From: Acidobacteriaceae bacterium
GTDB taxonomy: Bacteria; Acidobacteriota; Terriglobia; Terriglobales; Acidobacteriaceae
Assembly (NCBI GenBank): GCA_030039035.1
Contig: JASHQQ010000399.1
Location: 1-37,193, forward strand
Direction of reading: 5' to 3'
Length of the DNA stretch: 37,193 nt
In this document: positions 4,817-19,709 of the stretch, piece by piece
How positions within the stretch are numbered: the first letter of the stretch is position 1
Layout: each line of letters begins with the position of its first letter
The notes under the pieces: generated by a model
What the model was told of the DNA's origin: nothing
Seen by the model: the letters and a program-made list of their open reading frames with translations, nothing else
Databases searched by the model: none
Translations under genes and position numbers: made by a program

Positions 4817-4846
4817 TTGAATCCACAGATCGACTTCGCCTATTGT
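4817..4846 (+). promoter_or_regulatory. Promoter of intergenic RNA copy 1
   Basis: A -35 box TTGAAT (4817-4822) and -10 box TATTGT (4841-4846) are separated by 18 bp. The same arrangement, TTGCAT-18-TATTGT, is found upstream of copy 2 (8207-8236). A further conserved box TCCACAGAATT lies 27 bp upstream of the -35 (4790-4800). Confidence 0.6.
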
Positions 4847-4851
4847 CTCTT

Positions 4852-5179
4852 TCAGCAGGCAACCCCGTAGTGATCGGTGATTCATCGCTGGCTTGGCCAG
4901 AGGTGGAGATTCGAGAGCAGGCGGAGAGACACAGGCTGACTTGGGCCGCAAGGCAAAAGATCTGAGCCAGCGAGACGAACGCATCGGCGGCGCGAGTCGA
5001 AGGTGCACGAAACGAGCTGGTTTGGAGATTCACCGCAAGGTGAGGTTGGCAGGTGGAAAACCCGAATGAGATTGGAGATTCATCACCGGCTCCGAGCCGG
5101 AGGGTGACTGACCCGATCCTCCTATGAGATTGCCCATGAATACGCCAGAGGCCGAAAGGTCTCTGGCGTTTTCGTTTTT
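4852..5179 (+). ncRNA. Candidate structured non-coding RNA, copy 1 (~328 nt)
   Basis: A plus-strand unit runs from a sigma70-type promoter to an intrinsic terminator, with no convincing reading frame. It is homologous to 8242-8564: the same order CTATTGTCTCTTT, CCCGTA, GATCGG.GATTCATCGC and ending CGCCAGAGGCC-GAAA-GGTCTCTGGCG. Pairings visible: GGCAA (4858-4862) with TTGCC (5130-5134); GATCGG (4872-4877) with CCGATC (5113-5118); hairpin CATC-TGGC-TTG-GCCA-GGTG near 4883-4906; TCACC-GCAA-GGTGA (GNRA tetraloop) near 5030-5043; CCGGCT-CCG-AGCCGG near 5086-5100. The motif GGAGATT recurs inside it. It lies between two genes transcribed on the minus strand, so it is not a leader of either. I do not recognise the family; an existing Rfam family cannot be excluded. 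Confidence 0.7.
5143..5179 (+). terminator. Intrinsic terminator of RNA copy 1
   Basis: Stem CGCCAGAGGCC / GGTCTCTGGCG (one G.U pair) is closed by a GAAA tetraloop and followed by TTTTCGTTTTT. The stem-loop is identical to that at 8530-8555. Confidence 0.9.
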
Positions 5180-5229
5180 GCCGGAATCTTCGGCTCGGAT
5201 CAGCCGATCCGGGTTCGCCTCTTCCGGAA

Positions 5230-8206: not shown

Positions 8207-8236
8207 TTGCATTCACAGGCGTGAAATCCCTATTGT
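8207..8236 (+). promoter_or_regulatory. Promoter of intergenic RNA copy 2
   Basis: TTGCAT (8207-8212) and TATTGT (8231-8236) are spaced by 18 bp, matching copy 1. The upstream box TCCACAGAATT (8181-8191) and the run CAATTTGCACCA (8157-8168) also match the copy 1 upstream region. Confidence 0.6.
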
Positions 8237-8241
8237 CTCTT

Positions 8242-8564
8242 TAGCTGGTGAGCCCGTAAGAGATCGGAGATTCATCGCAGGCCAGAGCCGGTGATGCGAG
8301 ATTCGATTGAAGCCGGAAATTCGCCGCTGACCCGGAAAGAAGGTGCGGATTCGGGGGAACTCGAGGAATGCGTCGCCGGTGAAAGCCGGAGGAGCAGGAG
8401 ACGGGGGAAGCCGAAGAGGCATCGCCGGACTGGGCCGGAAGGCGCAGTCTCTGATTGACATTGGAGATTCATCGCTGGTATAGCCGGCGCGTGAAGTCTC
8501 CGATCCGACTGCGAGTTTACCCACGAAGGCGCCAGAGGCCGAAAGGTCTCTGGCGTTTTCGTTT
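8242..8564 (+). ncRNA. Candidate structured non-coding RNA, copy 2 (~323 nt)
   Basis: Homologue of 4852-5179 with the same promoter and terminator. Long-range pairings: GGTGA (8247-8251) with TTACC (8517-8521), the counterpart of GGCAA/TTGCC in copy 1, hence compensating changes; and GATCGGAGA (8262-8270) with TCTCCGATC (8497-8505), extended by TTCA/TGAA across a bulge. Local hairpins include CATCGC-GGC-CAGA-GCC-GTGATG near 8274-8296 and GCTGG-TATAG-CCGGC near 8474-8488. Several related modules with GCCGG stems lie between (for example near 8372-8392 and 8419-8440). GGAGATTCATCGC occurs at both ends of the interior. The terminator ends 70 bp before the TTG start of the VOC gene, so a separate RNA is more likely than a leader. 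Family not recognised. Confidence 0.7.
8530..8564 (+). terminator. Intrinsic terminator of RNA copy 2
   Basis: The same CGCCAGAGGCC-GAAA-GGTCTCTGGCG stem-loop as copy 1, followed by TTTTCGTTT. Confidence 0.9.
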
Positions 8565-8633
8565 CTGCATGAATATAAAATCCCGAAGGGAGCAGCGCGC
8601 CCGCGCATCGCATCGCCCCTGAGGAGGCGCCGG

Positions 8634-13220: not shown

Positions 13221-13372
13221 GGCGCGGGTAGAGAAGCTCCCTCACCCAAGTGTAGCGCGCGGTCGGTCCGAAACACTCGATTCGGCGGCCGGCCCCGGGG
13301 CAATCGCATGAAGGAGATTCATTGCTTCGGGAGGTTACAACTGTCCGCGCCGTAGGCGCAAAGTCGGTTAGC

Positions 13373-13392
13373 CCAGCGTTTCAACGCTGGGA
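13373..13392. repeat. Interspersed hairpin (REP-like)
   Basis: CCCAGCG-TTTCAA-CGCTGGG is a perfect 7-bp inverted repeat next to a second one, GCCCCGCAGGGGC (about 13419-13431). Such hairpin pairs without genes resemble interspersed repeats of Acidobacteriota intergenic DNA. No function is assigned. Confidence 0.5.
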
Positions 13393-13645: not shown

Positions 13646-13832
13646 CGGCCGATCCCGGGAAGGAGATTCCTCGCGTCGTCTTTACGGGACTCCGTCCTCA
13701 ACTGCGAAATCCCGGATCCCCGCGCTGAAGCACGGGGCTAACAAACACTGCGCCTGCGTGGACATTATTTTATGCAGGAATCGACAAGAGTCGGGGTTCT
13801 TTTTGGCCGAACGGCGTACGGGCAAAAGATTG

Positions 13833-14099
13833 TGCGCGAGAACTCGGTTGGGCAAGTCCTCGGTGTGCGAATTGGAGGGAGCAGCAGCCTTCAGGCTGCT
13901 GGTTTCGGCGCAAAACATCGACGTGGCTTTATAGCAAAACCAGAGATGCTGTGTACCGAAGCCAAGGCAATCAAGTCGCCGCGACCCCTGGGAGCGGCGA
14001 CACTGCAACACAGAAAACAGGCCATACCTTCTCTGGTTTTGCCGTAGCCATGGGTCCTTTGAAACCGGCTTTCTGGCCTTGGGCCCGGGTTCTCACGCA
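13833..14099 (+). mobile_element. Short terminal-inverted-repeat element, copy A (interrupted)
   Basis: Bounded by TGCGCGAGAAC (13833-13843) and GTTCTCACGCA (14089-14099), inverted repeats with one mismatch. The interior is ~95% identical by eye to 19400-19551, including hairpin CAGCAGCC-TTCA-GGCTGCTG. It is 115 bp longer than copy B because of an insertion at 13932-14046. There is no transposase; it looks like a non-autonomous MITE-like element. Confidence 0.65.
13932..14044. mobile_element. Nested 113-bp inverted-repeat insertion inside copy A
   Basis: Absent from the homologous site in copy B, where CTTTA runs straight into GCCATGGG. The ends are inverted repeats GCAAAACCAGAGA (13934-13946) and TCTCTGGTTTTGC (14030-14042), a perfect 13 bp. 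TA flanks both sides (13930-13931 and 14045-14046), as in Tc1/mariner-IS630 type insertions. It carries an internal 8-bp hairpin GTCGCCGC/GCGGCGAC (13975-14001) and no reading frame. Family not identified. Confidence 0.6.
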
Positions 14100-14193
14100 G
14101 ACACAAAAGCCCCTGCCCCTCACGCAGACTTGCTGCCGTCAATTCGATGGATGCCGCTAAATCGATCCGCCGACGTCATTTCTCTGGGCTCAA

Positions 14194-19283: not shown

Positions 19284-19304
19284 TTGTAACAGGGCATGAC
19301 TCGC
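19284..19304. repeat. Dispersed repeat TTTGTAACAGGGCA-type, copy 1, with following hairpin
   Basis: TTTGTAACAGGGCATGACTC (near 19283-19302) also occurs as TTTGTAACAGGGCACGACTC near 24265-24284. Just downstream is an 11-bp hairpin CCCCGACAAGC/GCTTGTTGGGG (19311-19321 and 19329-19339). The 550-bp gap to ispE holds this, mobile element copy B and no gene I can support. Confidence 0.5.
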
Positions 19305-19399
19305 CGGGGTCCCCGACAAGCCGGCTTTGCTTGTTGGGGTGGCTTCAGTCGAGCCGATCGAACTCCTTTATTGATAAATCCGGGCGGGCTTTAGAAGTG

Positions 19400-19551
19400 T
19401 GCGTGAGAACTCGTTTGGGCAAATCTTCGGGGTGCGAATTGGAGGGAGCAGCAGCCTTCAGGCTGCTGGTTTCGGCGCAAACCATCGACGTGGCTTTAGC
19501 CATGGGTCTTTTGAAACCGGCTTTATGGCCCTGGGCCCGGGTTCTCACGCA
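19400..19551 (+). mobile_element. Short terminal-inverted-repeat element, copy B (152 bp, uninterrupted)
   Basis: Ends TGCGTGAGAAC (19400-19410) and GTTCTCACGCA (19541-19551) are a perfect 11-bp inverted repeat. It carries the central hairpin CAGCAGCC-TTCA-GGCTGCTG and the block GGTTTCGGCGCAAA. Same orientation as copy A. Flanking TTTA on each side (near 19390 and 19557) could be a target duplication but is not certain. There is no coding capacity beyond short chance frames. Confidence 0.65.
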
Positions 19552-19709
19552 GTCACTTTAGCCACAGCGAGACGCCCAGCGACGCAATTCGTCTCGGCTT
19601 CGCCCTTTTTCCGCAGCCTCTGAAGTCGGACCCTTTCAAATCACCCTTTTTGAAACAAGCTCCAGGACAGCGGCGGCGCTGCGATCGACTCCACCTACAA
19701 TAAGTTGTC

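Follow-up and report, generated by a model that had tools for sequence, protein, structure and literature searches.

A gene-less miniature element widespread in soil Acidobacteria, probably of IS630 type, inserted into an older dispersed repeat

The 113-bp insert at positions 13932-14044 of the window, that is, of the whole 37,193-nucleotide stretch from an Acidobacteriaceae bacterium analyzed here, belongs to a widespread family of gene-less miniature elements in soil Acidobacteria. It is very probably a non-autonomous MITE of IS630 (Tc1/mariner-like) type, dependent on an IS630 transposase supplied in trans. In the window, the element inserted at a TA within a dispersed repeat that was already in place.

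The insert proper is bounded by a TA at 13930-13931, the left copy of the duplicated target, and by the right copy of this TA at 14045-14046. Read on the plus strand, with the end resembling a transposase 3' end taken as left, it starts with TAGCAAAACCAGAGA and finishes with TCTCTGGTTTTGCCG, followed by TA. Its left terminal arm (P1), GCAAAACCAGAGA, occupies 13934-13946 on the plus strand and the exact inverse, the right arm, lies at 14030-14042 on the minus strand, forming a perfect 13-bp inverted repeat. We thus reproduced both the coordinates and the repeats of the first-pass annotation, which had described a 113-bp element with perfect 13-bp inverted repeats at a TA site (13930-14046). No further match to GCAAAACCAGAGA was found in the window with up to two mismatches, a tolerance at which 0.82 are expected by chance. 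In the family, arm pairing continues inward past the 13 bp through a second box (P2), TGTATCC facing GGACACA, which reads TGTGTAC (13950-13956) and GGCCATA (14020-14026) in the window copy, both on the plus strand. An apical hairpin (P3) has its arms at 13975-13982 and 13994-14001, also on the plus strand. Finally, a conserved subterminal block is found at 13948-13963 on the minus strand; the reverse complement of its family consensus encodes GFGIQ, from which the window copy has mutated away.

The insert interrupts a dispersed repeat (copy A, 13830-14104, plus strand, limits set by eye) whose ends resemble GTGTGCGTGAGAACTCG and its inverse. An uninterrupted copy of this repeat, copy B (19396-19557, plus strand, limits also set by eye), reads GGCTTTAGCC at the same place with a single, empty TA at 19497-19498, in agreement with the earlier statement that it lacks the insert; the repeat tool aligns it with the halves of copy A at 94% and 88% identity. 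Once joined, the flanks of copy A also match, exactly, two other uninterrupted copies: C215 over 62 bases (overlapping loci L049 and L057) and C213 over 54 bases (L060). The own genome holds 42 left-half and 37 right-half matches to the outer repeat. By script count, the left half runs straight into the right half in 31 of the 42 and C208 is a thirty-second contiguous copy, which the script paired at 230 bp but where another right half abuts; 9 of the 42 left halves have no right half, and the gap between the halves of the window copy is 115 bp. The insert is therefore not a fixed part of the outer repeat and the order of events put forward for the window copy, outer repeat first and inner element later, holds. 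The first-pass annotation had gone further and spoken of a MITE within a MITE. The outer repeat has inverted ends (AGTGTGCGTGAGAACTCG and its inverse) and is a putative MITE at most, so that we limit ourselves to a MITE within a dispersed repeat. Elsewhere, the element lies at the left edge of an outer-repeat copy (C57), and in a copy cut by a contig end (L023) the same element adjoins sequence resembling, by eye, the outer right half, which may be a second nested copy.

The outer repeat is itself a repeat family, with some 40 matches or more, and contains internal palindromes, GCAGCAGCCTTCAGGCTGCTG and GTGGCTTTAGCCAC; the insert sits in the loop of the latter, the second one. Other features were noted in the window. 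The contig begins inside a 23S rRNA gene followed by a 5S rRNA (1-649). Two diverged paired repeats (families D2 and D5), located at 4839-5187 and 8229-8574 with a spacing of 3.39 kb, each end in a strong hairpin, CGCCAGAGGCCGAAAGGTCTCTGGCG. A match to the Acido-Lenti-1 RNA (RF01687, 41.3 bits) lies on the minus strand at 13346-13391, about 540 bases upstream of the element.

The 117-bp stretch, searched as DNA against the own genome, gave 40 scored matches, 17 of them with at least 96% identity (two of these cut by contig ends), and the copies have unrelated flanks. The first-pass annotation had proposed to look for inverted pairs about 110 bp apart. Indeed, 28 of the 32 exact GCAAAACCAGAG sites of this genome fall into 14 pairs with the spacing of the element, and the four unpaired ones lie opposite a mutated arm (C149 and C334) or at a contig end (C258 and C358). 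With a covariance model, at least 61 relatives were found in the own genome, and the core pattern was found in at least 101 stretches of other genomes; those sharing this core belong to MAGs named as Acidobacteriaceae, Acidobacteriales, Terracidiphilus and Silvibacterium. Among 60 genomes, 36 had matches to the model, namely 34 of the 36 same-genus genomes (own included) and 2 of the 24 others. When 299 genomes of the class were drawn and 12 candidates per genome scored, matches were obtained in 29, of which 25 belong to the same family, in several genera. The plasmid and phage collections gave no match to the element. In the genome G019, the ten copies fetched are of two types, each represented by five identical copies, and have ten different flanks, so that movement there was recent. 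Altogether, the family consists of many copies at unrelated sites, each too short to hold a transposase gene.

The length of the element is nearly fixed. We scanned 895 kb of partly overlapping loci, in the main fetched for the element they contain, for TA-NN followed by a 13-bp stem with at most one mismatch, at 60-320 bp. All 81 distinct pairs with the strict core measure 115-119 bp; among the 25 pairs without it, 18 measure 116-119 bp and the other seven are six TAGCTTC-type arrays and one 139-bp element. A wider scan of 1.19 Mb of partly overlapping loci, allowing two mismatches over the same size range and excluding the TAGCTTC arrays, gave 155 distinct TA-stem pairs, 141 of them of 115-119 bp, in loci mostly fetched for holding the element, so that the scan is not independent of it, although the core was not used. 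Core-free scanning also revealed members whose apical hairpin differs. Arm pairing is perfect in 94 of these 141 copies, which display 23 different arm sequences, and 52 distinct left arms are found when mutated copies are counted. Only 6 of 126 distinct core matches situated away from locus ends lack GC-starting ends paired at 9 or more of the 13 positions; among 122 copies passing this end test, 86 are paired at 13 positions and 32 at 12. The family thus has the terminal inverted repeats of an IS630-type MITE.

Across 47 aligned members, pairing in the terminal stem amounts to 98%, a figure inflated by the choice of rows partly for paired ends, and both sides have changed in 11 of its 13 pairs. 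For the whole structure, the covariation score, the count of doubly changed cells and the paired percentage were all higher than in any of 500 shuffles; 5 shuffles equalled or exceeded the number of doubly changed pairs, and 100 that of further pair types. The apical hairpin exists as two classes in register, GTCGaCGCgaCC/GGgaGCGgCGAC and GTGGCTTTTTC/GAAAAAGCCAC, with both-side changes in 5 of its 11 pairs; three of the 11 pair in the second class only, and further versions occur in other genera. The class-1 core of the pattern-fetched loci is no evidence of conservation, since the search pattern demanded it. In three loci (L195, L196 and L197, from G000, G013 and G050), the apical loop holds about 42-45 extra bases with a GGGGTCCCC...GGGGTGG hairpin, as if a second small hairpin repeat preferred the apical loop of the element; a motif similar to this hairpin is also seen in the window near 19304-19342.

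The TA target is duplicated on insertion. Indeed, 95 of the 122 copies have TA at both ends with full 30-base flanks. When the joined flanks of 120 copies were queried against the fetched loci, 16 gave a match across the junction. At least eight of these are insertions with an uninterrupted counterpart carrying the junction TA (L001, L005, L021, L075, L083, L121, L125 and L161), some of the counterparts of these eight having lost it; the remaining eight matches are weak, without TA, or themselves element ends. Copies elsewhere in the family therefore carry the TA duplication proposed from the window copy. At 127 of 140 sites with distinct flanks, a set in which every copy was chosen for TA at both ends, the target reads YTAR, with Y before and R after the TA. 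At CTAA sites, the left end adjoins the C 60 times (C-TA-A) versus 24 times in the reverse orientation (T-TA-G), which suggests an orientation preference at the target, copies being counted irrespective of relatedness. Many insertion sites look palindromic, such as GGGGC TA AAGCCC, and 8-bp stems are found at two sites versus 0.36 expected with 7 or more; as a general rule, a hairpin target was nevertheless rejected, the mean flank stem over 95 sites being 2.26 versus 2.15 +/- 0.10 in shuffled flanks. Tandem elements sharing one TA were also observed (L159 and L016:1501-1731, the latter with a GCAGTTTAAGAAA copy followed by a GCAAAACCAGAGA copy), so that elements insert at each other's TA.

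The IS630 assignment comes from relatives. PF13358 (DDE_3), the catalytic domain of IS630 transposases, was found in 32 of the 60 genomes searched, and the same-genus elements around such genes end in TA-NN-GC-N11-NNN-TGTA, which is the register of the MITE. The last box varies, being TATA at the left end of L170 and in L226, and TGTG and TGTT in L224. Four IS630 elements are complete by their ends, L170 (1052 bp), L205 (1017 bp), L206 (1069 bp) and L224 (1025 bp), and further right ends were found in L207, L208, L209, L210, L213, L226, L228, L230 and L233. L205 has overlapping frames of 136 and 214 amino acids, with DDE_3 in the second and 34 residues from the second D to the E (DD34E). L170 is probably a dead copy, since its reading frames are interrupted. 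L223 was rejected as a complete IS of 1181 bp, one of its ends not being the end that adjoins its transposase gene. The left-end block of the MITE, GCTGTATCCCGAAGCC, read backwards, encodes GFGIQ, and the transposase of L170 ends in GYGIQQA at the same place; this likeness suggests that the MITE has, at its left end, the counterpart of an IS630 transposase gene's 3' end. The N11 matches between the element and the IS630 lineages are partial. In contrast to the arms of the MITE, the two ends of each of the four complete relatives match one another at only 9-10 of 13 positions. Two IS630 right ends of G019 share TTCTCC...TGTAGAGC with the element copies of that genome. The ends are hence shared with autonomous IS630 elements in their register and in a similar subterminal block, not as the exact 13-mer. 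Transposition of the Tc1/mariner-IS630 type, which the first-pass annotation had read from the TA flanks, is supported by the TA junctions and by these congeneric genes with the same end layout. The search that it proposed, for an IS630 transposase with these very ends, succeeded for the layout, in congeners, but the exact GCAAAACCAGAGA 13-mer was on no IS in the material searched and the own assembly yielded no IS630 transposase.

The number of element copies is not simply tied to the transposase. G019 has 19 DDE_3 matches and at least 150 matches to the model, while G024 has three DDE_3 matches and two element copies. G044, G004, G010, G022 and G050 gave no DDE_3 match despite 31 to 61 scored element copies; in such genomes, the mobiliser has either been lost or is missing from the assemblies. 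The own assembly (86% complete, 404 contigs) gave six DDE_3 candidates, none of which passed, and no L170-like protein. A mobiliser in the same genome is usual for an IS630-type MITE and is not required; for the present element, mobilisation in trans is what we infer from this incomplete assembly, where none was found. We also scanned 895 kb for longer elements, as exact 13-bp TA-NN-GC pairs at 40-4000 bp. Six pairs fell outside the element length: three join separate class-1 copies of one locus, that of L102 joins two other copies, that of L117 is the inner pair of neighbouring copies and that of L081 has one arm belonging to a 118-bp copy, so that none was taken for an autonomous element.

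Several explanations have to be weighed here. A terminal stem and an apical hairpin with pronounced matched changes, the nearly fixed length and the conserved mismatches of the class-1 hairpin (forced by the search pattern for most rows) could be those of a structured RNA gene or regulatory element, with stems kept by selection on host transcripts and a secondary mobility. Selection for RNA folding should make one-sided changes to G.U exceed those to A.C. In the arms, however, the 53 imperfect cells of 1833 comprise 19 of the G.U type and 19 of the A.C type (14 and 13 among the 36 of 1560 in an earlier set), which is the pattern of decay without RNA selection and argues against it there. The five pairs of the P2 box, with 20 G.U-type versus 10 A.C-type cells, depart mildly from this balance, so that some RNA folding at P2 is conceivable. 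Rfam 15 gave no match on the element, either in the gathering scan of the window or in an E<=1 scan of seven loci covering both hairpin classes. The TA duplication and identical copies at new sites mean DNA transposition, and together with the IS630 partner they make an RNA origin very improbable.

If the element is a MITE, another TA-targeting transposase could have moved it, as might be suggested by the own assembly and several element-rich genomes, where no IS630 transposase was found; the end register common to congeneric IS630 elements and the left block resembling a transposase gene tail speak against this, and we consider it very improbable. The hairpin architecture, the high copy number and the orientation bias at the target (60 versus 24) also recall REP-like single-strand hairpin elements moved by a REP-associated tyrosine transposase. 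The duplicated TA, the IS630-like ends and the negative palindromic-target test make this the least credible reading, one to which we give hardly any weight. The common end register and the GFGIQ block resembling a transposase tail thus support an IS630-type MITE. An IS630 transposase acting in trans would bind both ends, excise the element, insert it at a YTAR site and duplicate the TA. The element itself would have originated by internal deletion of an IS630 element, and the mobiliser would since have been lost from the lineage of the window.

One would also wonder how so many different arms came to match. Once a copy is inserted, its arms seem free to decay, the matching arising in the jumping lineages. 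It could stem from the use of one preferred end in two copies, from hairpin-templated conversion or from an intermediate that is folded or looped. A more speculative hypothesis, which we find rather unlikely, is that movement depends on the fold and not on a fixed end sequence, perfect arms, a centred hairpin and the 113-bp spacing favouring transposition. The transposase would then need few fixed letters (TA, GC and TGTA), an extruded cruciform or looped synapsis, for example, would help transposition, and the two arms of a pair would change jointly, whether through selection or hairpin-templated conversion. Such joint rewriting would explain the near-perfect arms of the MITE versus the imperfect ends of IS630 elements.

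A parallel can be drawn with known systems by their description. In the parts of the literature available to us, the closest described case is RUP of Streptococcus pneumoniae with IS630-Spn1. RUP is about 107 bp long, has 108-110 copies and no transposase gene, and targets TA (PMC2229807, PMC3049150, PMC10969869). It is proposed to be moved by IS630-Spn1 (PMC2229807, PMC3049150); its ends resemble those of the resident IS630 element and it has been found inserted in other repeats (PMC2229807, PMC3049150, PMC10969869). The present family resembles RUP in its small size, many copies, lack of genes, TA target, IS630-like ends and insertion into repeats. Unlike RUP, it spans several genera, with 23 perfectly matched arm versions and an internal hairpin held in position. 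ERIC of enterobacteria and Correia/NEMIS of Neisseria are likewise small, abundant repeats that have inverted ends and are flanked by TA. A difference is that one terminal-repeat length is listed for each of them, 7 bp for ERIC and 24 bp for Correia (table of PMC2229807). According to the relevant part of PMC10969869, a similarity of ends to an IS was either not sought or not found except for RUP. ISY100 is an IS630/Tc1/mariner IS tested in vitro, with a duplicated TA target, 24-bp imperfect ends and a single transposase, and a mini-transposon that keeps 30 bp from each end is active (PMC2170065). The TA duplication is common to both, whereas ISY100 is autonomous and cyanobacterial. Going by titles and the opening lines of abstracts, none of the papers listed deals with IS630-type MITEs of Acidobacteria; the text of PMC5900883 mentions IS elements and no IS630, miniature or inverted repeat, and the sole mention of MITEs in PMC8841776 is a reference title. 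On sequence grounds, the present family would pass as an IS630-type MITE.

These results identify a source of abundant small repeats in common soil bacteria, together with its likely mobiliser. Letter-identical copies mark recent bursts in some relatives, and nested copies give relative dates of insertion. Finally, with one architecture bearing at least 23 arm variants that match perfectly, the family offers a natural test series for end pairing, hairpin formation and fixed spacing, which could tell which of the three drives the amplification of MITEs.
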